From contig NHNW01000056.1 of the NCBI GenBank assembly GCA_002786025.1, positions 186,001 through 250,000 on the forward strand: DNA of 64,000 nucleotides, read 5' to 3'. This stretch comes from Zasmidium citrigriseum. Its lineage: Eukaryota > Ascomycota > Dothideomycetes > Mycosphaerellales > Mycosphaerellaceae. Each line of letters begins with the position of its first letter. Positions within the stretch are counted from its first letter, which is position 1. Below, piece after piece: positions 8,497 to 62,757 of this stretch. The position numbers and the translations under genes were made by a program. The notes under the pieces were generated by a model, which did no database searches, was not told the origin of the DNA, and was given only the letters and a program-made list of their open reading frames with translations.

Positions 8497-9445
8497 CACG
8501 ATGCGTGCGAAGTGTGAATAAACGTACAGGACAGGACAAACGGGACTTTGACTTTCCTCTGATGTTATCTACGAGCGATGGAGTTATGGCGTTCTTGCCC
8601 CCACGGTGGGATCGTTTCTGTGAAAATGAAAAGATGGATGAGGATTTCGGATGAAGAGAGAGCCTGTAGCTTCTTCGATACCATCAATGATGATGCGGCC
8701 GTGAGCTGCCTGAATGTACCAACATCGCCCTACCGGTTCGACTCGCAAATTTCAACGAAGGAAAGAAGTGCTCTTCCGCTCGGCGAAGCGCAAGATCAGG
8801 TAACGTACAGGTCTATGGTTGTTCCAAGCTGACATTGGCCTTAGCAATCACTTTCTCATCGTGCGCAGAACCGCCGTTCGTGCAGCGGGTCCATGCTCAA
8901 GATTGCTCGATTGAGCATAGCGAACATCTGCCTTTGAAGGCGAGGTCAACGAGTCTGCTATCGCTCACCAGCTTTTGACCGACATGCAAGCGCTGTGGCA
9001 CTCTTGGGCACGCCATGGCCCGTTTCATCGCAGACGCACCAACTGCAAGCCGCATGTCCAAGACCAACGACTGGGGCCAAACAGACAACGTTGACCGGTC
9101 ACACGACAGCCATCTGGCTGGGCTGACAAGTAGATGAAAAATCGCCGAAGCGCACAACCAGTCACGATCGTCACGCCAACACCGACTATGCAACCGTCTG
9201 GAATCTCTGTTCGTTGGTCCTCTCCCTCTTTAAGCGACACATCTCCAGCTGAAGCGTGGCTACGCAGAATTGATAATAAAAATGGACCTCGCGTGGCACG
9301 ATCGTCGCCGCTAGAGAATCCTTCGACTAGGGTCGCTGGGGCTGAACAAAGGCCTGCCAACACTACAAGATCTTGCCTGTCTGTCGTGCCTGGACAGAGG
9401 AGTCACAACCTGGCCTTCCTCCTTCGCAGCCTCCAGTCCATCGCG
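8497..9445. other. Intergenic, 0.95 kb
   Basis: Between two co-directional membrane-protein genes. In-frame extension upstream of ATG 9446 back to 9134 is considered 5' leader because it precedes the signal peptide. Nothing else seen. Confidence 0.5.
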
Positions 9446-17073: not shown

Positions 17074-17280
17074 GGGGAACGAGAAAGACAGAGCCTTCCT
17101 TGTTATGACAAAAGTGATGGGAAGGGGAACGAGAAAGACGGAGCCTTCCTTGTTATGATGATGGTGGTGGTGGTGGTGGTGATGAGATGTAGAGGGGAAC
17201 GAGAAAGACAGAGCCTTCCTTGTTATGGTAGTTTGGTGATGATGGCGAAGATCAAGCAAGACAGAGCCTTCCTCGATGGT
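17074..17280 (-). repeat. Hairpin array A: four units in the 3' flank of the 17323-18705 gene
   Basis: Units at 17074-17107, 17124-17157, 17194-17227 and 17249-17280. On the minus strand (sense of the adjacent gene) each reads GGAAGGC-TCT-GTCTTTC or a close variant (TCC in unit 2; CTTGC in unit 4). The tip AAGGC/GUCUU closes a pyrimidine triloop and flanking bases extend the stem (AAC...GTT in three units). Spacers are G-poor (for example TCCCCTTCCCATCAC). The first unit starts about 45 nt after the stop codon of gene A. Unlike loci B-E, no AAAATTTTT tract or pseudoknot follows. Confidence 0.85.
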
Positions 17281-17322: not shown

Positions 17323-18705
17323 TCAGCGGTCGTCGGGCTTGGGGCGGCCGGCCGGGAGCGCTGGTGGTTCCCAGTTGTTGGCAAAGGGTGTCGAGGTGTA
17401 GCCAAAGTCCTCACCTGTCTTGTTGCTGAACTTTTTTGGTGGCTCATCGACATCGCGCGCATTGGACTTCTCCTTGAACTTCAGACACTCGCGACCGATC
17501 TCATTCAAGCTGCGATGGTCTCGCTGGTGCCACTCACGGAGGTTCTTCAGGTATTCCTCTTGGCCACCAGCTGCTTGTCGAGAGCGATGGACCCAGTTCG
17601 TGAAGTCCGGATAGTTGTACTCGCCCAGATATTCTTGTCCACTTCCTGAATGACCGTCTTCGTCGACCTCGGGCAATGCATTCGACGGACGTGCACGAGC
17701 TCTGTAGTAGCTCAGCATTAACTCGGAGGCGGCCTTCATGGTGTTGTTGTTGTCGAACAGCTCCATCTGCTGCTGTTCGGTCAAAAGGGCACCTTTGCCG
17801 TACCGGCCATCTTCGTCGCGACGAATCTCTGCTTCGGTCTGGGGTTCCCGAGGCCCTGCGGGTTTGCGTGAGGCCGTCACTGCCATCTCTTCTTCGTCGT
17901 CCTCAATGTTGGTGGTACTGAGGGCTCCTGGCAGACATGGCACACCTAGAAGGTCCCACGTGGCGCCGAGAGACATCATTGCCCGCTTCTGCGTTGGGCC
18001 GATGGCTTTGCTGGGGTTCCAGCTGTCTTGGCTGCCGAGCTGGAGCATGCGACGGAAACCCGTGGGCATCTCCAAGGCCCAGTCCGCAGTAGCAGGTATG
18101 CTCGTCCGGTCCGCCAGTGCAAACGAGCCGCTTCCAGAGAACTTCGTAGGCGTGGACTGGTCCGCGAACTCCAGACGTCCACCCAGGTGTAGGCCGGGGT
18201 TGCGGTCGTCTTGCGCCTCGTCGGCTTTCTTGTTGTGCTCTGCCACGAGCGTGTCCCAGATGGCAGGGTCGTTCTCTGATTGTTCACATCAGTTCCCTGA
18301 AGAGCATAAACACGATTGTAGCGGGTGTGACTTACTGTTCTTCAGCTCTTGCACCTTGGGCTTGAGCGCGTTGGCTTTCTCGAGCCATTCCATGGCGCGG
18401 GATCTCGCCGTTTGTGCATCGCGCACAGCTGACTCGTACTGATTTCTCAGCTGCGCCGCCTCCTGCGTGTCGTGGCCTCGGCCTTGGCTGGCCTGCACCA
18501 ACTGCCACAGGCGCTGCACTGTGGTATTGAGCTGTTCAGCTCTCGCTTTCGTCTATCTCAAAGTCAGTATGGGCATACGGGACCAGTGGTGGCTCTAAAG
18601 ACTCACTGTCTCAAGTTCTCGGGCGTAGTAGGCCCAAGTGCACGAGGGGCATCCGCCTGTGATCGACGGGTGCGGGCATGGCTTGTTGATTTTGTTGGAC
18701 TCCAT
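17323..18705 (-). CDS. Presumed nuclear protein with short Cys motif and coiled coil (gene A)
   Basis: Three exons: 18705..18607, 18552..18336 and 18275..17323 (introns 54 and 60 nt, GTGAGT and GTAAGT donors, ACTGAC and ACTGAT branches), 422 aa. The N-terminus has a short Cys motif (KPCPHPSITGGCPSCTWAYY), then a helical coiled-coil region (residues 34-110: ARAEQLNTTVQRLWQLVQAS and beyond). The remainder is polar without known domains; LHLGGRLEFADQ and QKRAMMSLGATWDLLGVP are notable hydrophobic patches. Introns were placed by matching phases (0, then 1), and the frame is continuous. The stop is followed directly by hairpin array A. Function unknown. Confidence 0.75.
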
Positions 18706-19048: not shown

Positions 19049-19120
19049 GAGCTGACTTGGTTTCGCCTTTCAGGCTACTCACGCCGCGCACCACGAGAAG
19101 GTGCAGCTCAATCGCACGGC
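19049..19120 (-). ncRNA. HDV-like self-cleaving ribozyme candidate, locus B
   Basis: A 72-nt element whose predicted cleavage is just 5' of G1 at 19120, after the tract AAAATTTTT. On the minus strand: P1 GCCGTGC/GCGCGGC (7 bp, one T-G wobble), P2 GAGCTG/CAGCTC (extends to 8 bp with TT/AA), P3 ACC/GGT, L3 TTCTCGT, junction GTGAGTAG, P4 GCCT-GAA-AGGC, and J4/2 CCAAG. The order P1-P2-P3-P3'-P1'-P4-P4'-P2' is that of the HDV ribozyme fold. The P1.1 mini-helix is not certain. It lies downstream of gene B and array B. Confidence 0.75.
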
Positions 19121-19130
19121 AAAAATTTTA

Positions 19131-19270
19131 GACCGATCCAAGACGAAGCCTTGAATCATGTCTGTGTTCAATGTGGGTGCAAAGGGGACGGTCAAAGACA
19201 AAGCCTTCGGTCGTATGAGTGTTTGTGTGCAAGGGGACGATCAAAGACGGAGCCTTCGGTCGTATGAATG
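19131..19270 (-). repeat. Hairpin array B: three units in the 3' flank of gene B
   Basis: Units at about 19131-19160, 19187-19216 and 19238-19264. Sense (minus strand) cores are CGAAGGC-TCC-GTCTTTG, CGAAGGC-TTT-GTCTTTG and CAAGGC-TTC-GTCTTGG. The stem edges ACGA/TCGT in the unit nearest the gene pair as DNA and RNA. The triloop varies only among pyrimidines. The array begins about 45 nt after the stop of gene B and ends directly at the A4T5 tract preceding ribozyme B. Confidence 0.85.
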
Positions 19271-19312: not shown

Positions 19313-20862
19313 TCAAATTTCCTCGTACTGCTCTTCCTGCGGGTTCTCCAATCCCGCCATCACATCATCGGCTTCTTGCCGTGTCATTGCCGCCTCCTCT
19401 TCTTGAATCTGTCGTCGTGGCTCGGGGCTGGCGTCGGCAGTCATTTCGTCATCGTCGTCGTTGTCGTCGGGATCGGTCTCGCTATTGCTGAAGTCGATGG
19501 CGTCGACATCTTGGGGTTTGGCAACGCGGCGGCGTCTCTTGGTCTTTCGGGGAGGGGATCGCGGGGGAGGGCTCTCAGACCCATTGACGGCTTCAACCGG
19601 GGTATCGGCCTGCTTGGGCTGTGTCGAACCCTGCTGCTCAGACATGCGACTGCCGACAGCCGCCATCTTCGCCCTCAAGGCGACTCGTCGAGGGTCGTCG
19701 ACCGCCGCAAGACCCGTGCTCGAGGCGTCGACTTCTGCCACATGTTCTGGATGGGCGTTCCGATCGCGTTTGCGAGCGTGATCATGGGCCGTTGCGGACC
19801 CCGAAGAAGACATTGGCCGCTGGGGCAAAGGTGGAGGCGGCATGTAGCTGAAGCCTGGGTTCAGGCTCTCTTGCTGGTGCTGAGGCTCTTCGGTCCTCAG
19901 GCGCTGTGCAGGCCTCTGATCTATATCTGCATCAGTGAAGTCCGTGTCGTGAGAATGAATACACTTACCTTCCAGGGGCTCCGCGTCTGGAATGTCCATG
20001 TTGGGCGGAGCTCGTGGCAAGCTGCCCACGCGTCCTGTCCCGCGCGCAGAGCCAGTGCGGAGTCCACCTCTGTTGGCACGGTAGCCCGATCCAAGAGCCT
20101 GACCTCTGTGGGCACCACGTGAAGCATTGCTAGCAGGATGAGGTTCCTGCGGGACATCGACAACGTAGAGCCTGGAGCCCGGCGGCAAAGTGCTGAAGTC
20201 GAAGTTCGACGACGGTACCCCGGAGAACGAGACCGCTGGTGGTGCCTGGGTGTACTGCGGCTGGTACTGCGGCTCAACGCCGTGCGCACGACTCCACCAC
20301 TCTGCGCTCCTCTGAGCGTCGCTCTTGCCCCGTTGCTGCGGCTCCTGCAGGTGCTGCAGCGGATTGGCTTGAACATGAGGCGGCAGAGGAGGGGGGCTCT
20401 GTAGGTCGATAGAGGAGGGCTGCCAGCCCCGCGGGACTTTGTCGTCTGGCAGAGGCTTCAGCCTCTGGGCCCCTTCGCCCGTCCTCGGCTTTGGTGGTGG
20501 AAGGTCGCCGAGGGTCTTCCTCTCCTGCGCTTGAAGGTAGAGCGCGTCGCTCATGGAGATGCCGCTGAGGACGCAGCTGCCACCAAACGTGCGGCAACAC
20601 GTGCATAGCGCTTGATTCACCTGCTTGTCGCACTGTCGCCGCCACTGTTAGCAATGTAGATTTAAAGGGGCTGTGGGGGTACACGTACGTCGAGCCACCT
20701 TCTCTGCTGGCAGGGCGTGCATTCCGTGTGAGGCGTGGTGGAGATGGTGTAGGTGGCCGTAGGCTGGCCTGTGGTGGCGGCGGGGGTGGGGGTGCTTTCG
20801 GCGGCCGTATCCATTGCGGCCGGCTCGTTGTTGTTGTTGGTGGTGGTGTCGTGGTCGGACAT
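19313..20862 (-). CDS. Six-cysteine zinc-cluster-like protein of unknown function (gene B)
   Basis: Exon 1 20862..20689 and exon 2 20632..19313 (56-nt intron with GTACGT donor and GCTAAC branch) give 497 aa. The N-terminal exon is Thr/Ala/Asn-rich and then, across the intron, six cysteines read C-x2-C-x7-C-x8-C-x2-C-x6-C (TECTPCQQRRWLD joined to CDKQVNQALCTCCRTF), spacing close to fungal Zn2Cys6 clusters. The rest is Pro/Gln-rich with an acidic/basic end (SPPRKTKRRRRVAK, then SNSETDPDDNDDDDEM). A 48-nt segment, 19968..19921, has GTAAGT and ATAG borders and could be a frame-neutral intron. Probably nuclear. Followed by array B and ribozyme B. Confidence 0.7.
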
Positions 20863-21075
20863 GGTGATGGTTCTGGTGTGCGAGTGGTGGTGGTGGTGGT
20901 GTTGATGTGATGCAGAGGAGCAGACGAGTCTGAACATGAGGCAGGAGCGGGCCAATTTCGGCTTTAGCGCGACAGCCGTTTGCTTCACGAAAACAAAGGC
21001 TGTCCGTCCGTCCATTTGTTTCCACCAACACCTCTCCGACCTCAGCAAAGACGAACCCCGCCCACGCATTCCATC

Positions 21076-22650
21076 ATGGATCCACGCAGCCAGCGACCCA
21101 TTTTCCTACCGAAGTCCGCCGGGGAGCTGTGGGATCGGCTCCCACATAAGTACGACAGCAGCGGCGAGAGAGAGCACGCGAGCAACAAGGCCAATCAGAG
21201 ATGGTGCCATGACAACTACGAGGCACTGGAGGCTCGTGACGAGCTGTCTATGGAAGAGCTGATGGCGCAGGAGCTGTACGTGTCGATGATCAGCGATCTG
21301 CAAGACCGTATCGACGCAGGCTGTGGCGGCGTCCGTACAGAATCTGTGCCAGCGGCCCCTCCTTCGCCCTCGTTCCCACCATCTACGCGAAAGGTACGTC
21401 TCATATGTCATTTTGGGGTTTGGATATTACTGATGCAGCTCCAGGGCAAAGACAAGGAGAAGGAGGGGAAGGAAGAGGTGGTGGCAGCAGCAAAGGAGGA
21501 GGAGGATAAGGAGCGCAGCCGAAGCCCCCGGAAAACTACACCATCATTGACGCCTTCACCTGCACCCAAAGTCGAAATACCGATGAGCTTCGGACATGCG
21601 CTGGGAGAGCAGCCGTCGTCGACGGAGAGCTTCGGGTCCTTCTTTCCCCTGAAAGCTCCCAGCGGAGAGTCTAAGGCCACTCCTTGGGATTCCGAGTCTC
21701 TCGATGGCGACAACAATCCATTCCACTTCGACTTCCACCCTCCCCGACAAAAGAGCCCTCCAGTATCTGCGGCACCCTCTACTGTCCAGAACAAGTCCGC
21801 TGCTGAGCCCAAGGCTGAACCATGTCCAGCGCCGAAGTCACCTAGTTCAGAGGAGCCACTTCCACCAGGCCAATGGGGCCAGCTGAGAAAGCGTCTGCAA
21901 GAGTCTGCTGATCCTGAAGCGAAGTCTCTAGGTGGCAGAGGTTCGACCTGGAGCCTTCCACCCAAGCCAGTAGACATGTTCGAGCGGTCGGATGCTTCTG
22001 CGAAGGTGGTTGTGAAGGTCGACAAGAATTCTCTCACCGGCCTCAACAGACATGGATTCGACCCAGCACAGCACTGGCCAGACAGCAGACGACACGGTCC
22101 CGGGAATCGTCCAATTTTCCACGAGCCAGAACTACAGGCTTACCTCCTGCGAGATGCCAACGGTATGCCTTACCTCAGCCTGACTCACGCATACATGACA
22201 TTCCATGAGCGGCTGCTCGTCAATCCCAAGCAGATGAAGCAGTTCATGGAAGATCATGGATTCTATCATCGATGCGACGGCTGCAGGCCAAAAGGTGGTT
22301 CCAAGGACTCGCCGCCGAAAAATTGCGACCACGCCTGGCCATGCAGTCAATGCCAAAGCGCCGGCATTAAATGTTCATACACATGGGCGGTGTCCTTTGA
22401 GAAAAAGGACTTCTACTGCAACTTTGCGCGACACTGCTTCAACATCCACGCCGAGGCCGTGGCATTCTTCAGCTTTGTCCAGGCCAACACATCGCGCCAG
22501 TCTTTCGTCGAGTCTCGCAGCAGGACAGGCCATTGCGGCACGAATGCCGTTCAGCCACCACAGGCATCTGAATCCGAACGATTGAGAGCCATCCAGCGCG
22601 ATTACGACAGCTTTCAATGGCCAGAGTTCGATTTCGACCCTTTCTCTTGA
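21076..22650 (+). CDS. Six-cysteine zinc-cluster-like protein of unknown function (gene C)
   Basis: ATG 21076 (MDPRSQRPIF) to stop 22650. A candidate 51-nt intron at 21394..21444 (GTACGT, TACTGAT, CTCCAG) is divisible by three and leaves the frame open if retained; 524 aa unspliced. The N-terminus (PKSAGELWDRLPHKYDSSGE) is helical; the middle is acidic/Pro-rich. Near the C-terminus CDGCRPKGGSKDSPPKNC, then PCSQCQSAGIKCSYTW, spell C-x2-C-x13-C-x5-C-x2-C-x6-C, a Zn2Cys6-like cluster. It is divergent from gene B (214 bp between ATGs). Followed on its strand by array C and ribozyme C. Confidence 0.75.
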   Translation: MDPRSQRPIFLPKSAGELWDRLPHKYDSSGEREHASNKANQRWCHDNYEALEARDELSMEELMAQELYVSMISDLQDRIDAGCGGVRTESVPAAPPSPSFPPSTRKVRLICHFGVWILLMQLQGKDKEKEGKEEVVAAAKEEEDKERSRSPRKTTPSLTPSPAPKVEIPMSFGHALGEQPSSTESFGSFFPLKAPSGESKATPWDSESLDGDNNPFHFDFHPPRQKSPPVSAAPSTVQNKSAAEPKAEPCPAPKSPSSEEPLPPGQWGQLRKRLQESADPEAKSLGGRGSTWSLPPKPVDMFERSDASAKVVVKVDKNSLTGLNRHGFDPAQHWPDSRRHGPGNRPIFHEPELQAYLLRDANGMPYLSLTHAYMTFHERLLVNPKQMKQFMEDHGFYHRCDGCRPKGGSKDSPPKNCDHAWPCSQCQSAGIKCSYTWAVSFEKKDFYCNFARHCFNIHAEAVAFFSFVQANTSRQSFVESRSRTGHCGTNAVQPPQASESERLRAIQRDYDSFQWPEFDFDPFS

Positions 22651-22775
22651 AGACCTGACAAGACATCACCGGGTCCGCTTCTGGAGAATACGGCACTTCG
22701 GCACTTGATCCGTTCTCGATATCGATCATGCGGTCATGTTGGAGCTATCAACACCCCTTCGCCCCTTCTTTCCCA

Positions 22776-22913
22776 TAATTCAAGGCTTTGTCTTGGATTC
22801 TCTTCATATCACATCATCCCCTTCTCATACGATCAAAGGCTCTGTCTTGGATCGTCGCATTTTGCACAACACAGCATCACATTACAATCAAAGGCTCTGT
22901 CTTGGATTGTCCA
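22776..22913 (+). repeat. Hairpin array C: three units in the 3' flank of gene C
   Basis: Units at about 22776-22803, 22828-22857 and 22884-22912. Plus-strand cores are TTCAAGGC-TTT-GTCTTGGA, TCAAAGGC-TCT-GTCTTGGA and the same again. The outer stems covary between units: CGATC/GATCG in unit 2 and CAATC/GATTG in unit 3. The first unit lies 125 nt after the stop of gene C. The array runs into CCAAAAATTTTT and ribozyme C. Confidence 0.85.
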
Positions 22914-22922
22914 AAAATTTTT

Positions 22923-22992
22923 GTCGCGCGATGAGCTGCACCTTCACGTGGTGCGCGATGTCAGTAGCCTTCGGGTGAAACCAAGACGGCTC
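22923..22992 (+). ncRNA. HDV-like self-cleaving ribozyme candidate, locus C
   Basis: A 70-nt element after CAAAAATTTTT, predicted cut before G22923. P1 GTCGCGC/GCGCGAT (7 bp, opening G-T wobble), P2 GAGCTG/CGGCTC (one T-G wobble), P3 ACC/GGT, L3 TTCACGT, junction GTCAGTAG, P4 closed by CC-TTCG-GG (a UUCG tetraloop in RNA), J4/2 CCAAG. P1 differs from locus D at most pairs yet still forms. It ends 17 bp from the stop of the convergent 23010-23925 gene, so it is antisense to that gene's 3' flank. Confidence 0.78.
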
Positions 22993-23009: not shown

Positions 23010-23925
23010 TCATACAACGGAGCTATTACCTCTTGCCATTACCATCTCATTCTCTTGGTTAGGGTGTTGGTTGAAGAACCGTTCAACGAAGACGTCTGAA
23101 CGAACAATTCCACCGACAGCTGTTCCAATTCCACGAACGGTTCGACGACATTCGCCACTCAGTCCATCCGCCATATCACCGCTGGAATTTCGGTCTATCA
23201 CTGTCAGCAGTCCCGCACACGAACATTTGGATGCCATGGCTGTCGCTTCCCGCGCACTCACTGTCTCTGTGGAATCGACATTTGTGCCCGTGTTCTCGAA
23301 ACGAGCAATTGGCACAAGCGCCTCTGAGAGCATCGCCGTCTCCGTCAACAACACACCTCCGAAAGGGGCCCATGCCGCGTTTGCACTCATCGCAAGGCTC
23401 TCGCTGGGCGAGACCAACTCGATGAATCTGAAGCGCTCGACGATGCCTCTCAAAGCCAATCTGAACCGTGTTGCGCCGGCGAACGAACTCATCGCGGAAT
23501 ACGATCCGTTGGCGAGTCGGCAGCTCGAGGCATGTGGCCCATAGCGGTACTCTTCGAAAGCTTGCTTCGCCAACCTTACGTAGCTCATCTCTAAGCTGGT
23601 TGACGAGGCTTTCGGTGTAGTCCGCGTTGTGGGCCGGACGGAACTTGTCTCGAGGCATCGCTGTTTGAACAGCTGCAGCGTCGATTGCCTCGGGCGGCAG
23701 CACGTCTGCGATTGATGCATGAGGGCCATCCTGCTCGTCTTGTCTCAAGAATGCTTCGACCATATCAATGGCATCACCCGTTGATGGCGACAGCGATTCC
23801 CAATTCGCAATTGAGCTTTTCGAGTTCAATGAAGGTCCATGCCTGCGCTTCGCTGGGCTTGAGGCAGCAGATCTGTTCACAGACAAAGTCCGCTTCTTGC
23901 CGCCGATAGCTGACTGGTCCTTCAT
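23010..23925 (-). CDS. DUF3716-like zinc-cluster protein
   Basis: Exon 1 23925..23262 and exon 2 23200..23010 (61-nt intron, GTGAGT donor; the only tested acceptor keeping both frames is CTGACAG) give 284 aa. Residues 100-215 carry ADYTESLVNQLRDEL and a six-Cys cluster CDECKRGMGPFRRC ... GACANCSFREHGHKC, i.e. C-x2-C-x9-C-x12-C-x2-C-x8-C followed by FHRD. The same arrangement (ADYT, GPF, GACANC) recurs in the 26445-28608 gene. I match it from memory to the fungal domain of unknown function DUF3716. The N-terminus is basic (GGKKRTLSVNRS, PAKRRHG). Role unknown, probably nucleic-acid-associated. Convergent with gene C. Confidence 0.65.
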
Positions 23926-25736: not shown

Positions 25737-25867
25737 GGGGAAGTGGTGTAGCGGTAGCACACGGAGGGGCTCTGGACCAGATATCTCTCGTTACTGGGCC
25801 AGGGTGAGATCACTCATACTCTCAGTACCTTAACTCCGAGACATGGGTTCGAATCCCATCTTCTCCA
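25737..25867 (+). tRNA. tRNA-like gene with long insert in the anticodon arm, isotype unassigned
   Basis: Acceptor stem GGGGAAG/CTTCTCC (7 bp, one wobble) followed by A, D arm GTGT/GCAC with loop AGCGGTA, anticodon stem CGGAG/CTCCG, T arm ATGGG-TTCGAAT-CCCAT (a good B box). The two halves of the anticodon stem are separated by 67 nt (25767-25833), so about 60 nt would be intron. No way of splitting the insert puts U at position 33, so I cannot assign an anticodon. A run of eight T at 25877-25884 is a ready polymerase III terminator. It is either a tRNA with an unusual intron or a decayed copy. Confidence 0.55.
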
Positions 25868-26444: not shown

Positions 26445-28608
26445 TTATACTCCGTAGCGCTTCCGGAGTTCCATCCAAGCCATGGATAGACCGTCATCGC
26501 CATCAAGGTCGGTCAGATCGATCGTCTTTTTGTGATCCGGCCATAGGCCGAACTTCTCCACGAGCTCATTCAACCATTCCCAACGGCGGACAGAAAGGTA
26601 CCTTTCTTTCGACGGCCACTCATTCTCTTCTCCGTACTTCAGTTTCTTGCTCAGGACAGACCGCCACAGTCTCTCCAACTCATTCGTGCTCCAGCAATCA
26701 CAGCGACTGATGATGAAGCGCACCTGTTCATTGGTCGCTGTGCCTTCTTTGAATCTGTCGGTGACGAGGACCTTTACGTCTTCCGTAGGGAAAGCTCCGG
26801 CCAAGGCATCGGTGCACGAGTACCCGCGGACGCAGCCTGGGTGCACAAAATCTCTCGGTATAGCATCTGCAGAGTCTTGACGTTGGCGTTTGATGATGGG
26901 CCCCTCGCCGTCTGCACCGCTGGTACCTGTCATTTCTTCGACCATGTCAAGCACATCGGCCATGTCATCCGTCATCTGGCGTTTTAAGGGATTTCGTCGA
27001 GAATCTATATCGGTAGCATTGGCTGCGTCAACATTGACGTTGTTAACCTGGCGCTCGCTTTGGGCTGTGCTGCCATTCTCGACGCTTGCCACAAAGCTCT
27101 GGATGTCATCTGGAGCGTCTCCGATCACTTCTACGTCCTGGCCTCGTGGTAGAAGATCGCGATCGTCCTGCGAGGACGCTGGAGTCAGCTGCATATCCAA
27201 GTCGTCGAACCCGACCGAACTTCGAGCAGCCTCGCTGTGCGCCCTCTGGGACGACGGGGCAGAGCTATGGTCCGAGAGGGCGTTGCCAATGCCCATCAGC
27301 CTGGGTATGTTCTGAAAAGAATCTACAATCATTAGACGAAGCCCTGTGCTTACTGGTCGGCACTTACTCCTGGTGTGATATTCACACTGCGTATTGTCGT
27401 GTCGGCTGAAGCCACAATTCGCGCAAGCTCCAGAGAAATCGTTCATCCAAGTCACACACTTGGCAAAGGGACCTGCTCCGGCCTGGCAGCAACTGCATCG
27501 ATTGACTTGCGCCACGCCGAAGATGTAAACAAGCATCGCTCGAACCTTGTCCGGCCGGTCAAAGGTGTACGTCTGGCCCTCTCGCATCAGCGTCGGCGGA
27601 AGCTGTAGCCGCTGGCGGATCCGCAGGTTGAGAAAGCGAGAAATGGTGCTATTTGCCAGCCTCGTCGTCTTGACATTGTCCGCGACCAATAGCTCTCGCC
27701 GCATCTGTTTCAGAAAGCTGATTGTGTAGTCAGCATCTGCCTGTGGTTGAAAACGATGGAAGGAGAAGTGTTTTCTGGTGTTTGGATCCGGTTCCGCTTC
27801 GGGGACGACGTAGCAATCTGGAAACTCCAGGAAAGTCCACCAGCTCAGCTCAGCTGTTTCTTGGGTACTGTTTTTGACCTCGCCAAGTTCCCTTTCGAAG
27901 TCTGCCACTGCTTGTTTCGGCAGTTCCCAATCGAAATGCCAACTGGGCTTCCAGACGATCAAATCCATCTCTTCACCAGTCGCGGCATGTGACTCAGCAG
28001 GAGAGTGCTCTTCAACATCCCACTCAACACCGGCAACTTTGACCGTCAAGCGTCCATCGTCCGCTTGATGGAGGACAGACTTTGGGTGCTTTGTGTTCGC
28101 CCACCTCACCAAATGTTCGACGACTCCATGGTTCCTGCGCTTATTTTCGATCCTCACCACCTTCCAGTCTCGGTCTGGAAGGCTTGCTCTTGCTTCATCC
28201 AGCAGTCTTCGAGGTGGCTCGACGGATGTGTCGTCTGCTGTTGGCAGAAATTCTTCAGTCGAGGACTGGCCATCTACCCGTTCTTCACCATTGGTATTCT
28301 CAATGCTCTGCTCAATGGCAGCGGACACAGCTACTGGAGGCCGGAAAGGTAGATTGATGGGCTGGAATGACGGAAGTTCAGGAGAGCCTAAACTCGATCA
28401 GTACTCCTGCGGCTACTCAACACATCGGGTTCGGCCTACCAAGTCCGTCCATTGCTGCGTTTGATATTTGCTGTGATACGAGCTCTGGACTTGGACAGCG
28501 AGCACGCTTTCGTCTTTGCAGTTCCTGCAGATATGAGTCGAGGTCGAGCGAACGACTCCACAAGTATCGAAGCTCAGACTCTGGGTCCCAACGCCGAGCA
28601 TTCACCAT
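26445..28608 (-). CDS. DUF3716-like zinc-cluster protein, long form
   Basis: Exon 2 is 28361..26445; its continuous frame lacks a good ATG at its 5' end. A short exon 1 at 28608..28480 (MVNARRWDPESELRYLWSRS) joins in phase 0 across a 119-nt intron with a weak GTATCA donor and a TTCCAG acceptor, giving 681 aa. The first 230 residues include Trp-rich patches (VWKPSWHFDWELP, LSWWTFLEFPDCYV). Then ADADYTISFLKQMRREL and a six-Cys cluster CSCCQAGAGPFAKC, GACANCGFSRHDNTQC (C-x2-C-x9-C-x10-C-x2-C-x8-C) match the 23010-23925 gene. A 42-nt segment at 27353..27312 (GTAAGC, TTTTCAG) may be a frame-neutral intron. The C-terminal 150 residues have DFVHPGCVRGYSC and RRWEWLNELVEKFGLWPDHK. Function unknown. 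Confidence 0.65.
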
Positions 28609-41695: not shown

Positions 41696-41769
41696 GAGCT
41701 GGCTTGGTTTCACCGAAGGATCGGCTACTCACACCGCACACCACGAGAAGGTGCAGCTCATTGTGCGGC
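41696..41769 (-). ncRNA. HDV-like self-cleaving ribozyme candidate, locus D
   Basis: A 74-nt element, predicted cut before G1 at 41769, preceded on the minus strand by CAAAATTTTT. P1 GCCGCAC/GTGCGGT (7 bp, opening G-T wobble like G1-U37 of the HDV ribozyme), P2 GAGCTG/CAGCTC, P3 ACC/GGT, L3 TTCTCGT (HDV: UCCUCGC), junction GTGAGTAG, P4 CCGA-TCCT-TCGG, J4/2 CCAAG (antigenomic HDV: CUAAG). One extra C lies between P2 and P3, which could lengthen P3 to CACC/GGTG at the expense of one P1 pair. Confidence 0.8.
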
Positions 41770-41777
41770 AAAAATTT

Positions 41778-41958
41778 TGTATGATCCAAGACAGAGCCTT
41801 GAAGCATAGTGTTGGGGGAGTGGGCTGGTGAAGATCCAAGACAGAGCCTTGAAGCTTAATGACATGGGAATGGGCAGGGGAAGATCCAAGACAGAGCCTT
41901 GAAGCTTGATGAGAATGGGTGAAGGGAAAGGTCCAAGACAAAGCCTTGAATCATGATG
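41778..41958 (-). repeat. Hairpin array D: four units in the 3' flank of gene D
   Basis: Units at about 41780-41808, 41831-41859, 41880-41910 and 41928-41956. Sense (minus) cores are TTCAAGGC-YYY-GTCTTGGA; the triloop is TTT in the unit nearest the gene and TCT in the other three. Outer stems differ but pair: TATG/CATA in the unit next to the ribozyme, AAG/CTT in a middle unit. Spacers are nearly G-free on the sense strand (for example CCCTTCACCCATTCTCATC). The array starts about 25 nt after the stop codon. Confidence 0.87.
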
Positions 41959-41981: not shown

Positions 41982-43943
41982 TCAGATGTCGTTGCGTCCG
42001 GAGTTGTCGACCGAAGCATCGTAAATGTCGCGGCCGAGATTGTCTTGCTTCTCCTGGCCGAGCCACTCGCTGAGCTTGAAGAGCCGCTGGAGAGCTGGAT
42101 CCCGGTCGCCTCTGTACGTGATGGGAATTGGAGCCAAGGAGAAAGCGCCGTTCATCTGATTGGACCAGGCCATATCCTGTACGAAGAACTGGTCGCCTAT
42201 GATGTCTGCACCGACGTCACCCTGATAGACGAACAGCTTCATGGTATAGGCGAAAGTAGTGGGGTTGATCCAGGTCTCGGCCCACGTCTCGAAGTATCCG
42301 CTAGCGGCTGTGAAGCCATCAGGGCCTCTCATGATGAGGTTGAGCTCGATAGCGTCGTCTTCATACCGTTCCCGTAGCCTAGCGAGGGCTTTGTTGAGTT
42401 TCGAGTCTCCGCGCTCGGTTGCTGGTCCGACCGTACGGGCAACAGGATCTGTGCCTTTCCTATTGATGCGTGCAGTCTCGATGATGTTGTCTTCCTCGAA
42501 CGTGTTTGGTGGGAACCCGGACATGAAACGCTCGGCGATCTCCAGATTCTCGGCCATCCTCCTGTCCATCGACTCTTGTGTGATCGCGCCTGCAGCGGTT
42601 GCGCTTTGACGGCACACGACGACGACAATGCGACGTATTCTCCTGCCTTCTTCATCGAACATTGGCCGGACGGAGTCTTCAATTGCTGCTGAATGCCTCG
42701 CAAACTTGTTGGCTTTCGGCTGCACGTCTGCGGCGCGAGTCCGAAGCATCTCATGGAGCATCTTCGGGGTATTGGATGCCGGCCTGGAGGCAAAGGCGCG
42801 CAAGAGCTTGCTCCAATGCAGTCCTGCTTTCCGACAACAGTCCACCAACAACTTCATCCTCTTTTCACGGCTCAAGATCGAAATGTCTCGATCCGGTCCG
42901 AAGTCACCGTTGGCCAGCATCTCGTCGACCTTCTTCTGGTTCTGCCGGATCCAGAAGGCCAGTGTGATGGAACCTGCACCTGGCAAAGGCTTCTCCGAAA
43001 TCTGTACAAGCTTCCAGAGGCTATCCACGGCCACCCTGACCTGATCATTTCGGACGTGACAGGGTCTGCCGCCCCTTTCCAACCAATGCTTGAAACCGGT
43101 GTCAAGCTTTGCCGGCTTCCAGGGCTTGGACTTCGCTTTGCGGTTCCGTTTCTTCTTCGGCGGATCTTCTGTACTGATGTCACGATCTGTGAGCTCTGTG
43201 GACTCCGCAGGGTCGACACGGTTAGTGCTATCGGGGATCTCGACCAAGAGGGCAGCGTCTTTTGCCTCCTGGATGGCATTCTCGTCTCGTGTGCCCGTGC
43301 GGCGGTCCAGATGCCAGATTCGCCACTGTTCATCCATCTCTCTGGTGGATTCTGGGTGGCGCACATATTCTTGCTCTGCAGCCTCGTTTGCCCGAGTAAC
43401 CATCTTCGCAGTCCCTCGACGTGAGACAGTTGTTTTAGAGGTCTCTTGAACTCGTGCATCCACCGAATCCAGTCCCGCAAGAATGTCGCTGCCATGACAT
43501 TTTGCCTGCTTAATGTGCACCTCCTTGGCGCTTACACACTCCAGCTGCAGGCATTCACACCGCGTGCACGCGCGCATGCCATCGCCGCCGCCATGATCAC
43601 ACAGTACACATTCGTCTTGCTGGTGCTTGACCAGGGCGTCTGAGGTGCCGAAACCTTTACCACACAGCGGATGGTGGCACACGTACGGTTTCCATTGCTT
43701 TGCAGCGCGGCTATGGTCTGGGTCTGGAGTGGCGATCACATATCCATCTTCCCCTTCACCGGTAGCCATCGACAGCGTGGAACCACGATGGAATTGGATC
43801 AGATGTCGCTGAAGAGCCACCTTCTGGTGGAATGCGGCCTTGCAGCCGATGACGGGACAGTGCTGGTTCTTCGTGGCGAGCTTCATTCGCTCCAAGCAAG
43901 GACCACAAGTTGTCCGGCGCAATTTCTCTCGGAGAGCATTCAT
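41982..43943 (-). CDS. C2H2-type zinc-finger protein of unknown function (gene D)
   Basis: ATG 43943 (MNALREKLRRTTCGPC) gives 653 aa. The frame is open upstream to 44249, but that extension starts at TTG and is made of a minisatellite, so it is probably leader or intron. Near the N-terminus are CGPCLERMK, a finger CPVIGCKAAFHQKVALQRH..H (C-x4-C-x12-H-x4-H), a second one VCHHPLCGKGFGTSDALVKH, and a Cys cluster CVLCDHGGGDGMRACTRCEC. A basic nuclear signal (PPKKKRNRKAKSKP) follows. The C-terminal 330 residues are mostly helical with GFKHWLERGGRPCH and TFAYTMKLFVYQGDVGADII. The stop is followed immediately by array D and ribozyme D. Confidence 0.75.
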   Translation of the reverse strand: MNALREKLRRTTCGPCLERMKLATKNQHCPVIGCKAAFHQKVALQRHLIQFHRGSTLSMATGEGEDGYVIATPDPDHSRAAKQWKPYVCHHPLCGKGFGTSDALVKHQQDECVLCDHGGGDGMRACTRCECLQLECVSAKEVHIKQAKCHGSDILAGLDSVDARVQETSKTTVSRRGTAKMVTRANEAAEQEYVRHPESTREMDEQWRIWHLDRRTGTRDENAIQEAKDAALLVEIPDSTNRVDPAESTELTDRDISTEDPPKKKRNRKAKSKPWKPAKLDTGFKHWLERGGRPCHVRNDQVRVAVDSLWKLVQISEKPLPGAGSITLAFWIRQNQKKVDEMLANGDFGPDRDISILSREKRMKLLVDCCRKAGLHWSKLLRAFASRPASNTPKMLHEMLRTRAADVQPKANKFARHSAAIEDSVRPMFDEEGRRIRRIVVVVCRQSATAAGAITQESMDRRMAENLEIAERFMSGFPPNTFEEDNIIETARINRKGTDPVARTVGPATERGDSKLNKALARLRERYEDDAIELNLIMRGPDGFTAASGYFETWAETWINPTTFAYTMKLFVYQGDVGADIIGDQFFVQDMAWSNQMNGAFSLAPIPITYRGDRDPALQRLFKLSEWLGQEKQDNLGRDIYDASVDNSGRNDI

Positions 43944-44093
43944 ATCCCTCTCGAAGCTGGAGCCCTTTCCTTCGACCACGCGGTTGATCTCGAAGCGTGG
44001 TGGGAGTCCCGTCGAAGTCGCTGTCGTACAGTCAGCACAATAGCTTTGGGAAAGAAGTAAGAGAAGGGGCTGGAAGACGTGACGATGGGCCAG

Positions 44094-44300
44094 CCAGTGA
44101 GCGAGACAGTGAGCGGAGGATTCAGCCCAGAAATGAAGCAAACCCATCCCAATGGCGAACGGGTAATGAACCCAACCATCGTGCACAAGTGAGCCGGACA
44201 GTGAGCCAACCATCATGCAGAAGTGAGCGGGAGTGTGAGCCAAACACAAAGCGGAAATGAGCCAGACAGTGAGCCAGACAGTGAGCCAGACGGTGAGGAT
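44094..44300. repeat. Degenerate minisatellite, unit about TGAGCCAGACAG
   Basis: Successive imperfect copies of GTGAGCCAGACA and relatives (GTGAGCGAGACA, GTGAGCCGGACA, ATGAGCCAGACA), perfect in the last three units near 44264-44292. It lies between the start of gene D and the 3' end of the 44361-44828 gene (both minus strand), in a 5' leader or promoter. Confidence 0.7.
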
Positions 44301-51380: not shown

Positions 51381-51404
51381 ACTCAGATACTATGTGTGTC
51401 GCTA

Positions 51405-52505
51405 CTGGCAGAGCTTCGCATCCACATCTACGAGTACGCACTGGGCCCACCGGCCGACCCTGGACGCATGCACCCTCTTCTTGTCCGAATCATCAAAGAT
51501 GATGGTTTCTGCTATTCCTCCAGCCAGAGCTGCGTATCCGCATCTACGAGTATGCATTGGACCCATTGGGCCCATTGGCCGACGCTCTTGTCCGAATCAT
51601 CAAAGGTCATCACCAAGTTGCCATGCTTCTGTCATTCCCAGCAGAGCTCCGCATCCGCATCTACGAGTATGCATTGGACCCACTGGCAGATCCTGGACCT
51701 GGACGCATGCACCCTCTTCTCCGAATCTTCAAGGCCATCGCCCACTTCCTAATTCTTCGTCGCTCTCAGCAGAGCTCCGCATCTGCATCTACGAGCAGGT
51801 ATTGGATCCACTGGCCGACCCTTGGCGTGTACGGCCCCATCAAATCATGATAGGGCCATCACCAAAATGCCTGCTATGGCACAGTGCCACGGAAGAGAAA
51901 CCGCGATGCGACTGTGCCATGAACACCATCAACCTGGCTCTGTTGAGAGTCCACAAGGAAGTCTCGGCCGGAGCCATGGCCTCCATTGCGAAGGACTCAC
52001 ATCCATGCCGACCTCTCGACGGAGGCCATGGCCTTGCTGGGCTTGACAAGTATTGGAAGACAATCCAGCAGGAGTTGCCTCAATTTCGAAAGATTTAAAT
52101 CCACGCCGACCTCTCCACGGAGAAGATCAACAACTTCAAGTTCGTTCTCTCAGCTCTCATGGGACTCAGGACGTTAGGCAAGCTGCAATATATTCGACTT
52201 GAGCTGGTACCACGACTATCAAGACGATTACGTCGAGACTTGCCGTACCAATGTAGTACTGGTTGTGATGACCCGGTCGGGATGGTCTTGCTGGGCTTGA
52301 CAAGGATTGAAAGGCGCATGGAGCGAGAACTGCCTCAGTTGCCCGAACACCACTCCAAAGCTCAGGATGTAGAGCCGAGAGCGAACACCGGATGGAGAAT
52401 TTCGTTGGCGTTGACTCTTGCTTGGTTCTCCCCCATTGATATGCACACTGAAGCATGTACTGTGATTGAATTCAACCAAGAGAATGATCGTGGAAAGGAG
52501 GAAAG
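51405..52505 (+). pseudogene. Relic of an LPAELR-type fungal protein with four tandem N-terminal motif copies
   Basis: Four tandem copies of a unit of about 125 bp encode LLAELRIHIYEYALGPPADP, a second in a shifted frame, FPAELRIRIYEYALDPLADP and LSAELRICIYEQVLDPLADP (at about 51407, 51525, 51640 and 51767). Copies 1-3 also share MHPLL-RI. The motif is the start of a large fungal family (LPAELRNRIYEYVL). After copy 4 the frame continues NTINLALLRVHKEVSAGAMA, the usual next motif, to a stop at 52098. A further related piece (LLGLTRIERRMERELPQLPE) appears at about 52290 in another frame. Frames shift between copies, so it is unlikely to be functional. Confidence 0.65.
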
Positions 52506-55123: not shown

Positions 55124-55857
55124 CTGGGGCCAGCAATGGTTGGTTTTGGGCGTCGTAATGAATTTATGGGATACATGACCGCAGCCTGTTCGGCGAGAAT
55201 AGCGCTTCTAATTCTTCGAAATGCAACACGTTTTGCGTTGTCCGGGTGCCTTCGCGCGCTGTCGTTCGAGGTGTGGAAAAGAATGAGAGGATACAGCAAA
55301 GATGAGGTGAGGTTGAATAAAGAAACAAGACGAAGAGTTGGGGCCGCGTAATGCGCGACGGCGCGAGAACTAGTTTTGCAATCCCTGCGGGTCTGATTGT
55401 ACATGATGATGACATCTTCACAGATATATACATTCTTCTAGAAAGACAGTTTTTGACCATGTCTGAGGGGCCGACGGACAGCAAGCACACTCATCAGGGC
55501 ATTTGTTCACGTGGGAGCCGATCGATGCAGATTCTGATTCTGATTCGATCCCGCTGCGTCAACTTGTTGTCAATTTGATCAGGATGCTCCTGTCTCCTAT
55601 CTCTCGATGTTTCATCAGCAGCCGATAGCGAGGGCACGCCACGCCGGCGGTCAGCTGGTCGTCGGCCACGCCGCCATGTCTTGCACCGAGAGGAGAGGAG
55701 TACAGCTTCCAGAAGTGAAGAGCAAGGGAGCGGTGGTTGGCTAGACAGTCCATTGCGATTGCGATAACATTGACATGCCAAACACTCTTCTTCTCCAACC
55801 CCTGGTCCCCTGGTCATTGAACGCCGATCAGCAGGTGATGAAAAAGAAAATGTTGTA
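55124..55857. other. Intergenic containing a dispersed repeat copy
   Basis: Convergent 3' flank between the CFEM-like gene and ribozyme E; holds the repeat copy listed at 55499-55700. Confidence 0.5.
55499..55700 (+). repeat. Dispersed repeat copy, inverted relative to 62385-62610
   Basis: Plus strand reads TTGTTCACGTGGGAGCCGAT, CGATG, ATGCTCCTGTCTC, GATGTTTCATCAGCAGC, then GGCGGTCAGCTGGTCGTCGG and CCACGCCGCCATGTCTTGCA; the reverse complement of 62385-62610 has the same blocks in order. Translated, both begin HLFTWEPIDADSDS / RLFAWEPIDAESDS, so the ancestor was coding. This copy has a stop after ISRCFISSR. Confidence 0.7.
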
Positions 55858-55934
55858 GAGCTGTCTTAGCTTCACCGAAATGAGTCGGCTACTGACACTG
55901 TACACCGCGAGAAGGTGCAGCTCCATCGTACAGC
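55858..55934 (-). ncRNA. HDV-like self-cleaving ribozyme candidate, locus E
   Basis: A 77-nt element, predicted cut before G1 at 55934, preceded on the minus strand by CCAAAAATTTTT. P1 GCTGTAC/GTACAGT (7 bp, opening G-T wobble), P2 GAGCTG/CAGCTC, P3 ACC/GGT, L3 TTCTCGC (one base from UCCUCGC of HDV), junction GTCAGTAG, P4 CCGA-CTCATT-TCGG, J4/2 CTAAG, identical to antigenomic HDV. P1 differs from the other copies at several pairs without losing pairing. Confidence 0.8.
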
Positions 55935-55944
55935 AAAAATTTTT

Positions 55945-56129
55945 GGACGATCCAAGACAGAGCCTTGAAGCGTACTTATGTGTGATGGGGCAGGGAAATG
56001 ATCCAAGACAGAGCCTTGAAGCATGATGAAGTATGAAAAGGGCAGGGGAAGATCCAAGACAGAGCCTTGAAGCTTGATGAATCGGAAGATGGGTAAGAGA
56101 GATCCAAGACAAAGCCTTTGATCAAGAAT
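55945..56129 (-). repeat. Hairpin array E: four units in the 3' flank of prp43
   Basis: Units at about 55945-55976, 55997-56024, 56048-56078 and 56099-56129. Sense (minus) cores are GATCAAAGGC-TTT-GTCTTGGATC (nearest the gene) and TTCAAGGC-TCT-GTCTTGGA in the rest. Outer stems covary: AAG/CTT, ATG/CAT and ACG/CGT in successive units. The predicted stop codon of the spliced helicase message lies inside the first unit's left arm. Spacers such as CTCTTACCCATCTTCCG are G-poor. Confidence 0.87.
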
Positions 56130-58586
56130 TGCTGTTGAAAGTCAGCAGGGGGAGGTGTGAGGATACTCACGAACTCGGGAGGTCCAAGATGTACTCGCGA
56201 CTGAATCCAGTCATGGAGCGGAACTTGGCGATGACGGCCTCCTTGATCGGACCCTCGGGCATACGGCGGGGATTCCAAAACCGGTATGAAGACCAGATCA
56301 GCCACTCAAGCTTAACGGCCGACACCTTGATAAGTCGTGTCGTGGCTCCGGAGACTCTGCACTCGTCGAAGATGACCCACTCCTTGTCGCCATACAAGCG
56401 CTCAGACTTGGTGAGCTGAGCTCTCTCGCCAGATGTGACGGTGAGGTACGTGGGCGGTGGGTCCGGATCATTAGGCTTCTTCTTCGGTGGGTCGGGCATC
56501 TTCTTTGCAGCTCGCATGAAGTAGGCCGCGCAAAGAGCCTTCAAGATCGACGTGAAGAAGTTCTTGGCGGAGGGGTCGAGCCACTTGATGGGGATGTTGT
56601 TCTTCTTCATGATGTCGAGCAGCTGCCGGACTGTCTTGTCGGCGGTCCTGAAGATCTCAATGTCCAAGAATTGTTGATAGCAGACGGATTCGGCTCTCTC
56701 GTGACCACCATTCTTCAGCGCATGGCAGTAGACGTAGTAGGCGTTGAGCAGAGTGAGATGCTCTCCACTCCAGTGCTGGTAATGCTTGACGCATTCTTTG
56801 CGTGGCTCCTTGTCCTCGTCCTTGTCCGCCGGGAGGAAGATACCTTGCTCTTGTGTGGCCTGCAACATGGCAATGATGCAAACAATCTCACCAGAGCAGC
56901 CGTATGACGCACCGGCCAGGATCGCGACAGCTTGGTGCGGCTCGAGTGGAAATTTGGCGACCATATGACCGCGTCCGGTCAGCACTGCTGCGTCCTTGTC
57001 CGTGCAGATCTCCAGCCAAAAAAGTTCTTCGAATGCGCGAGCAAACGATTCGGGCGCCGGAGGGTGGATGAAGTCGAACTTGAGGGGATTGTGGCCGAGG
57101 CCGCACAGGGTGACAGCAGTCTGGGTCATGCTGTCCTTGAGGATGGCGGGGTCGATGCTTTCGGCGAAGCCCCCTTGAAATGCTTGCTCGGTGTACAAGC
57201 GGAAGCAGACACCGGGCATGGTACGACCAGCACGACCGCTGCGCTGCTCGGCTTGCGCTTTGCTGATCCTCGTGACATTAAATCTCTTGAGAGCCTTGCG
57301 AGGATCGTCTACCTTGGCCTTCACCAAGCCAGTGTCGACGACGAAGACGATGCCATCGATGGTCAGCGAGGTTTCGGCAACGTTGGTCGCAACGATGACC
57401 TTGCGGTCGATCCGACCGCCCGCGCCGGCAGAGAGTGGTGTGGGCTGAAACACCTGCCTCTTCGCCGCCGCGGACGAACCCGAGGCGAACTTGATGGGCG
57501 TCAATGTGCCCAAATTGCCGGTGCCCCTGCATCTCCTGACGAGGTCGTTGATGGATTTAACGACCTTGTTGATCTCTTCCGCGCCCGGCACAAACACCAA
57601 AACATCACCAGGCCCCCGTCGGACCGCAATCTCTTCCACGACGATCTTGGCTGCAGCGTCGAGGATGTCATCGGCTGGCTCCTTCAGGTACACGATCTCG
57701 ACGGGGTGCGTACGACCCTTCACTCGAACAATGTTGTCCGGGCCGTTCAAGCTTGGGAAGTACGACAGAAACTTGGCGGTATCGAGGGTGGCGGACATGA
57801 TGATGACTTTGAGGTCTGGCCTCTTCGGCATGATGCTCTTGAGAAGACCCATGAGGATGTCGGTGCTGGCGGTTCTCTCATGGGCCTCGTCGATGATGAC
57901 GCAGGCGTACTGAGGCAACAACGGCTCCAGCTTGGCGTGCATTAGGAGGAGGCCTGTGGGTGAAAGTCAGCCAGCTGTTGGGGCTATGGTGTTATGGTGG
58001 ACATACCGTCTGTCAAGAAGTCTGTGACGGTCTTTCCCAGTTTGCACATCTTCTCGTGCTTGAACTCGTAGCCGACTTCTTCGCCAAGGGCGACGTCGCA
58101 TTGCTGTGCGACACGTTCCGAAACCTGAGAGACGGCCGTCAGCAATTGGAATCAACTGTGGAGCACGACAGCACTTACCGAGCGTGCGGCGACCTGTCGA
58201 GGCTGTGTGCAGGCCACCTTCTGCGGCTCCTCCGCCAGGCGGACGGGGTCCTCATCCGCAGTAACGAAGTAGGGGACCAGAGTTGTCTTCCCCGAGCCGG
58301 TCTCCCCCACAAAGATCATGAGCTGGTGCTTGTGGTAGCAATCCAAAAACTCCTGTCGGGCGAGGAAGACCGGCAGATCCTCCAGCTTGGCCATGATGGC
58401 ATGGTACTCGTCGCTAAGCTTTTCCCCGTTGAAGGGGTTGATCTGGCCGTGCTCGATCTCGGTGGCCAGGGCGGAGGTCATTTCATTTGGCGCCCATATC
58501 ACGTAGGTCTTCTTGGGCGCCTTCTTCGTCTTCGTCTTGTTGGAGTGGCCTCCACGGCCAGCGGGCAGCTGCGATGGTGCGCTCAT
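56122..58586 (-). CDS. prp43: DEAH-box RNA helicase Prp43 (gene E)
   Basis: Four exons, 58586..58179, 58124..58007, 57953..56171 and 56131..56122, give 772 aa, the usual Prp43 length. Motif I GETGSGKT (94-101), Ia TQPRQVAARS, II DEAH (197-200), III SAT (229-231), V NVAETSLTIDG, VI QRSGRAGR, then winged-helix, ratchet (HA2) and OB-fold regions are complete. Prp43/DHX15 releases spliceosomes after splicing and works in ribosome assembly. Introns of 54 and 53 nt have GTAAGT/GTATGT donors and CTGAC branches. A third, 39-nt intron (GTGAGT, CTGAC, CAACAG) interrupts the penultimate codons; unspliced, the protein would end two codons earlier at the TGA inside the donor. Followed by array E and ribozyme E. 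Confidence 0.93.
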
Positions 58587-62048: not shown

Positions 62049-62757
62049 CCTGAAGCTGCAGATGGAGGAGCTCGAGGTACCAATGTACGTCTTGTCACAG
62101 GAGCAGCTTCCGCTTCGAGATGTGACGGCCGATCTTCAATCATCCAACAGCGAGTGGTCGAAGGAGGGGGAGCGGATGGATGGATGAGTGGGCTGGCCGC
62201 GCTTTTGAACAGACGACCAGAAAGACCCCGGCTCGACACACCACGACTCGTACTCGACCATGTTCCCGTTGCTGTCGTGCAACGCCTCGACGAAAATCCG
62301 CACGCGCGAGAAACTTTGACAGATCCCAGGAGTGGCGTTGATCCGGAACGGTCTTGTGCGCCTGGCCAACCAACGTTCGGCTCCTCTCAGTTCTGGAAGC
62401 TCGCCTGCGTCGCTGTACTTTTCTCGCTGCAAGACATGGCGGCGTGGCCGACGACCAGCTGACCGCCGGCGTGCACTCGCTATCCTCGATTGTGCCTCTC
62501 CGCTGCTGATGAAACATGGAGAGACAGGAGCATCCTGGTCGAGGGGACCAAGCCGGGTCGAATCAGATTCGGCATCGATCGGCTCCCACGCGAACAAACG
62601 TGGATCCTTCGTCATGGTGTGCGTTATAATGACACGGAACCGGGCCCCATACCAGCCAAGACGGAAGTCGGTGAGAATCACACCGCCGGCCGTCGGCCGG
62701 CGTATGTTGACGCGTTCGCGTTGTTTACCTCACCGTCGACACCTCGCCGTCGCTTTC
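62049..62757. other. Repeat-bearing intergenic region before the RIP-mutated block
   Basis: Minus-strand frame 62681-62136 is open and carries the repeat copy at 62385-62610; the sequence NGNMVEYESWCVEPGSF (about 62240) looks like decayed coding sequence. No intact gene. Confidence 0.45.
62385..62610 (-). repeat. Dispersed repeat copy, inverted relative to 55499-55700
   Basis: See the partner entry. Minus strand reads RLFAWEPIDAESDSTRLGP with no stop for 180 codons, so this copy is the better preserved of the two. About 6.9 kb separates the copies. Confidence 0.7.

Follow-up and report, generated by a model that had tools for sequence, protein, structure and literature searches.

HDV-like ribozymes are common in retroelements, those of R2 and L1Tc being situated at the 5' end of the element. 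A variant form of the ribozyme has been described from fungi by Li & Breaker (2017; PMC5640933), who report 230 examples from 26 fungi that, according to the main text of that paper, are marked by an additional nucleotide, in most cases C, separating P2 from P3, by a loop E that partly replaces P4, and typically by C-G pairing where cleavage occurs. For two of these variants cleavage at the base of P1 was demonstrated, the product masses of one agreed with a 2',3'-cyclic phosphate plus a 5'-hydroxyl, and the gene associations of the class are described there by the authors as widely variable (PMC5640933). Within the open-licence literature that was searched, by titles and the openings of abstracts, this was the only paper with natural HDV variants of fungi as its plain subject, and no report of ribozymes of this kind coupled to tandem hairpins came to light. 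The four copies considered here (c1 to c4; Table 1) share with the variants, as presented in PMC5640933, the nested double pseudoknot, the extra C and probably the loop-E-like P4, whereas the pair at the cleavage site is mostly G-U here and C-G there. The hairpin arrays, U5 tract and association with stop codons that are found at this locus receive no mention in the main text of the paper on the variant class (PMC5640933), and the surroundings of the ribozymes are not explained by membership of that class.

Table 1. Positions of ribozymes, preceding A/U tracts, hairpin arrays and upstream open reading frames in the window
Feature	Position	Strand	Remark
HDV-like ribozyme c1	19049..19120	minus	R1 covariance model 90.9 bits
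HDV-like ribozyme c2	22923..22992	plus	R1 covariance model 87.5 bits
HDV-like ribozyme c3	41696..41769	minus	R1 covariance model 86.7 bits
HDV-like ribozyme c4	55858..55934	minus	R1 covariance model 85.3 bits
A4U5 tract	19121..19129	minus	ends at predicted c1 cleavage site
A5U5 tract	22913..22922	plus	ends at predicted c2 cleavage site
A4U5 tract	41770..41778	minus	ends at predicted c3 cleavage site
A5U5 tract	55935..55944	minus	ends at predicted c4 cleavage site
Hairpin array before c1	19133..19263	minus	3 tandem hairpins
Hairpin array before c2	22775..22910	plus	3 tandem hairpins
Hairpin array before c3	41781..41954	minus	4 tandem hairpins
Hairpin array before c4	55947..56125	minus	4 tandem hairpins
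Hairpin array a5	17078..17277	minus	4 tandem hairpins; no ribozyme behind (no R1 match)
ORF before c1 module	19313..20620	minus	no family found
ORF before c2 module	20980..22650	plus	weak Zn-cluster match below Pfam cut-off
ORF before c3 module	41982..44249	minus	weak C2H2 zinc-finger matches below Pfam cut-off
ORF before c4 module	56167..57942	minus	main 3' ORF of Prp43-like DEAH helicase gene
ORF before array a5	17323..18246	minus	no family found

The window, by which is meant the whole 64,000-nucleotide stretch of Zasmidium citrigriseum DNA that was analysed, was searched on both strands with a structural descriptor comprising a 7-bp P1 starting with G, a 6-bp P2, a 3-bp P3, a 7-nt L3, CNAA at J4/2, and P2'. 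The descriptor, which was drawn up after the copies had been seen, returned exactly c1 to c4 and nothing else, all four at the places and on the strands given in a preliminary description of the locus, and had no match in a control set of 40 sequences, each 128 kb long, generated by a first-order Markov model. A cmscan of the whole window against Rfam revealed no HDV family up to an E value of 10, and a laxer scan of the 351 bases around c3 gave RF02682 (HDV-F-prausnitzii) at 41733-41769 with 16.6 bits, where the cut-off is 44. The Rfam comparison that had been proposed as a check on the family is therefore negative at the gathering cut-off, whereas copies from the same genome, together with their covariation, do support the fold.

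These further copies were sought in the 44.4 Mb of the genome (148 contigs). A DNA search located two, 193 bp apart on contig C59, and the first six copies were used to build a covariance model (R1) that pairs P2, P3 and P4 and has no P1 or P1.1 pairs. Patterns for P3/L3 or P4-J4/2, followed by a check with R1, added copies at C75:153990 (71.7 bits), C75:33024 (59.2 bits) and C116:212687 (31.1 bits). The genome thus holds at least nine copies, four in the window and five elsewhere, a figure that is a lower bound because the patterns are narrow and one list of candidates was followed in part (24 of 41). That list derives from the P3/L3 pattern, with 47 matches in the genome (56 in the control), six of them copies already known; the R1 search of 24 among the other 41 yielded one new copy. 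A wide J4/2 pattern matched 13 times (four times in the reversed control), nine of the matches being ribozyme copies, and the remaining four (on C35, C78 and C94, and at C116:1077283) were discarded as having no R1 match. A looser descriptor applied to the loci from this genome and to the window recovered only the nine copies. Outside the genome, one core pattern matched 24 stretches in IMG/VR and at least 119 in GTDB genomes; the looser descriptor gave four matches in these 143 loci (1.12 Mb), which were rejected as chance, none having AGTA by eye, and with them the candidate prokaryotic or viral relatives.

The settings of the copies outside the window are varied. The C59 pair (C59:288007-288271; L015:4007-4078 and 4200-4271) consists of tandem ribozymes, each located shortly after a TACTAAC...CAG sequence reminiscent of the branch point and 3' splice site of fungal introns, and each with a P2 of CAGGCAG/CTGCCTG rather than GAGCTG/CAGCTC. 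The copy on C116 (L167:1460-1534) starts 91 nt past the point where a same-strand open frame of 181 codons stops, and one of those on C75 (L211:1494-1564) may, as read by eye, lie behind a short two-exon ORF; from these two contexts, 3' flanks may be the place of further copies. Upstream of the ribozyme at C75:33024, in the first 600 bases of L211 on the ribozyme strand, a segment like GGCGAACTCAATACTTGTCACACAGCC occurs about four times by eye.

The order P1-P2-P3-P3'-P1'-P4-P4'-P2' put forward for the window copies recurs in all nine, each with a 7-bp P1 and a 3-bp P3, and with every cell of P1, P2 and P3 paired. Six copies gave 120 paired cells out of 120, and nine gave 181 standard pairs out of 181, compared with 25-45% of cells paired in a slid-structure control. 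Changes on both sides were seen at 17 of the 21 pairs, including 7/7 in P2 and 6/7 in P1, so that the covariation earlier claimed for P1 holds, and the covariation score of 0.668 (0.225 when shuffled) was reached by none of 500 shuffles. The adverse outcome that the preliminary description had named, namely more homologues with unpaired P1 or P4, did not arise, in that all cells pair in each of the five additional copies. Two of these, C75:33024 and C116:212687, were found by J4/2 patterns without P1 letters, and all seven P1 pairs and P1.1 form in both; since P1 and P1.1 lie outside the R1 pairs and the P4-J4/2 patterns, they constitute independent evidence in these copies. The wobble pairs, comprising G-U at the base of P1 in seven of the nine copies (three window copies had been said to open in this way), U-G in P2 in one, as described previously, and G-U in P4 in six, are consistent with the assigned strand; read on the opposite one they would not pair.

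Certain details of the fold required revision. P4 is paired in all cells, as claimed, but is better drawn as outer pairs RCC/GGY over an AGUA/GAA pattern, invariant in 9/9 copies, that is probably a loop E. For J4/2, originally given as CYAAG, the C (the catalytic C of HDV-like ribozymes) is present in 9/9 copies and is followed by YAAG in seven and by UGAG in two. Two features had been listed as weak points. P1.1, described as not obvious, is present as one pair that joins L3 to the base after P1', C-G in eight copies and U-A in the C116 copy, a second pair not being evident. The extra C between P2 and P3 is real in 9/9 copies and, far from being a weakness, matches the published mark of the fungal variants; it is because of this hallmark that the ribozyme is placed in that class. 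The pair at the cleavage site, where C-G is published as typical and not as required, is G-C in one copy, C-G in another and G-U in the remaining seven. The fold, its covariation and the new copies support the proposed family, and c1 to c4 are, as judged from their sequences, HDV-like ribozymes belonging to the known fungal variant class, with cleavage predicted.

Each of the four window ribozymes is the last part of a module that reads, on the sense strand of four different neighbouring genes, stop codon, a tandem row of three or four covarying hairpins, A4-5U5 and ribozyme. The preliminary description had named neither the hairpins, the A4-5U5 tract and the stop codons nor the copies outside the window. 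The distance from stop codon to array on the same strand is 56, 131, 34 and 48 nt for c1 to c4 and 52 nt for a5. All five arrays are situated behind a same-strand ORF of at least 300 codons, compared with 2.6% of random positions and strands having such an ORF end no more than 150 nt upstream, although the five are not independent trials because the arrays are related. The upstream proteins showed a best mutual BLASTP E value of 0.40, and common ancestry for the five was rejected. Protein searches were conducted with the c2, c3 and c4 ORFs, the c3 query being trimmed to 651 codons and that for c2 taking in intron-like as well as 5' sequence. The DEAH helicase of the c4 gene, for which a Walker A motif is readable in the sequence upstream of the main ORF, is 38-42% identical to the 120 relatives listed, and no scored relative at E 0.001 was obtained for the c2 and c3 ORFs, with approximately 8000 candidates scored per search.

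Other features of the window were recorded also. DUF3716 domains are encoded at 23269-23436 and 27378-27539, both on the minus strand, three of the five whole-genome matches to this domain being on the contig of the window and two inside the window itself. Just downstream of the c4 ribozyme are inverted repeats (55502-55691 and 62422-62598) that are approximately 7 kb apart, measure 35-52 nt and are 89-98% complementary. A tRNA match at 25737-25867 (plus strand; RF00005, 49.6 bits) has an intron-like insert at the anticodon arm, and ARAGORN in its bacterial setting lists none. Four copies of a coding-like 69-nt repeat, 65-81% alike, occupy 51397-51826 on the plus strand. A Starship island was considered and rejected, the four DUF3435 matches comprising three stop-containing pieces on C70 and one match below the cut-off on C116, with none on C101.

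The arrays comprise 18 hairpin units with the core AAGGCUYYGUCUU on the same strand as the ribozyme, spaced at 47-55 nt with one gap of 70. Each unit can form a hairpin with approximately 10 bp around a 7-nt loop or, according to folding prediction, 12 bp with a UYY triloop; pairing weakens past base pair 10, and stem position 7 is unpaired in 9/16 units. The alignment (A3) contains 16 distinct units, two of the 18 being omitted as identical to others over 33 nt, as was a two-mismatch core match at 8654-8666 that belongs to no array. Within it 87.5% of cells are paired, compared with 29-55% for slid versions, and the covariation score of 0.405 (0.119 when shuffled) was reached by 0/500 shuffles. 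Two of the five measures applied, the count of both-side changes and the count of pair types, were no better than shuffles (119/500 and 141/500, respectively). The 13 linkers between units contain 16 G in 334 nt. Whole-array folds of three of the five arrays, in which inter-unit pairing is mixed in, were not unusually stable (z of -1.46, -1.33 and -2.51), and the case for the hairpins is one of covariation, not of folding energy.

The last hairpin core precedes the first base of the ribozyme by 19, 19, 18 and 19 nt in c1 to c4, and A4U5 or A5U5 ends exactly at the predicted cleavage site in all four. The five copies elsewhere in the genome have no A4-5U5 tract in front of the ribozyme, and the hairpin model found nothing above 13.9 bits at their loci. 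The core has 29 matches in the genome (7 in the control), 18 being the window units. Eight of the other 11 were scored by the hairpin model and rejected as hairpins of this kind at 12.9-22.6 bits, compared with 38.0-49.4 bits in the window, although the best of the outside matches, on C83 (E 0.0003), may be a lone hairpin. Two exact cores 25-55 nt apart occur 12 times in the genome, all within the 39 kb that contain the five arrays (reversed control 0), in a search that is blind to arrays with a different core. Array and ribozyme are separable, since one of the five arrays is without ribozyme and five of the nine ribozymes are without array or tract.

It could feasibly be, and we give this reading roughly an even chance, that genes here finish their mRNAs by ribozyme, cleavage making a tail-less end that is guarded by hairpins and carries U5 with a cyclic phosphate. 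The module would be transcribed together with the gene; the ribozyme would then fold and cut before its own first base, as was demonstrated for two other variants in this class and as its structure implies here. Were the cut in vivo to precede or supplant polyadenylation, the 5' product would be a working mRNA that lacks poly(A) and terminates in the hairpins followed by U5 bearing a 2',3'-cyclic phosphate. Hairpins and U6-like end might together replace poly(A), acting as a barrier to decay or as the binding site of a protein, for example Lsm2-8. On the account given in PMC7491322, Lsm2-8 recognises an oligoU end that bears a 2',3'-cyclic phosphate, whereas the complex that initiates mRNA decay, Lsm1-7, disfavours such phosphates; Lsm2-8 is for this reason a concrete candidate for the protection step. 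The ribozyme fold and its covariation, the published cleavage of the class to a cyclic phosphate and the covariation of the hairpins suggest such an end, as do the arrays behind stop codons, the 18-19 nt from core to ribozyme and U5 at the site in 4/4 copies, although the shared spacing and U5 may be inheritance because the four modules are related by descent. Against it stand the separability of array and ribozyme, the unremarkable fold energies of the three arrays folded whole, and the two hairpin measures that did no better than shuffles.

The main rival is that the module limits expression of its own gene, the ribozyme stripping the poly(A) tail such that the mRNA is degraded, with the hairpins binding a regulator of cleavage or decay. 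Hammerhead ribozymes in the 3'UTRs of rodent Clec2 genes do lower expression, and the same module anatomy would be expected; however, the hairpins remain on the 5' product, right beside its freshly cut end, and cleavage does not require the constant U5 tract, features that suit a purpose-made end better without being decisive, and we regard self-limitation as unlikely. It is more improbable still that the modules are what is left of some local repeat or of a mobile element, which the ribozyme serves or served with no role for the host gene. The frequency of HDV-like ribozymes in retroelements favours such an origin, as do the mutual similarity of the modules and their confinement to 39 kb. The architecture is indeed shared with the R2 and L1Tc ribozymes; these, however, occupy the 5' ends of retroelements, and the background on retrotransposon 5' ends that was first invoked for this locus does not fit the window copies, which come after stop codons. 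Covariation has, moreover, been kept across nine divergent copies, 5/5 arrays are on the sense strand just behind the stop codons of different genes, and no reverse-transcriptase family was detected among the 30 ORFs scanned. A switch in which the 3' strand of a hairpin pairs with the J4/2-P2' segment and turns the ribozyme off is highly improbable. Predicted duplexes with the c2 and c4 tails do rank low against shuffled tails (11/300 and 15/300), but those with c1 and c3 are unremarkable (66/300 and 69/300) and the idea failed its control, three of the four array-less copies that were scored (c5, c7 and c9, with 0, 3 and 3 of 300; not c8) being at least as complementary.

Returning to the ribozyme-made 3' end, the module could, in a more speculative and rather doubtful extension, be the signature of a gene cluster, in which neighbouring unrelated genes replace polyadenylation with a hairpin-guarded, U6-like end of oligoU with a cyclic phosphate, recognised by Lsm2-8 or by some protein that binds the hairpins. 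The fixed place of the ribozymes behind four genes bears on the role of natural HDV-like ribozymes in cellular genes; this place, a second covarying RNA element and a defined cleavage end make a role in forming mRNA 3' ends directly testable. If correct, it would amount to a way of finishing nuclear mRNAs by ribozyme, without a poly(A) tail. Histone mRNAs carry a stem-loop near a tail-less 3' end, whereas the genes described here are followed by a row of hairpins of other sequence. In U6 snRNA, oligoU with a cyclic phosphate is the Lsm2-8 ligand, according to PMC7491322, and a like ligand is proposed here. The U6 and histone ends are, however, made by proteins, whereas the end proposed here would be made by a ribozyme.
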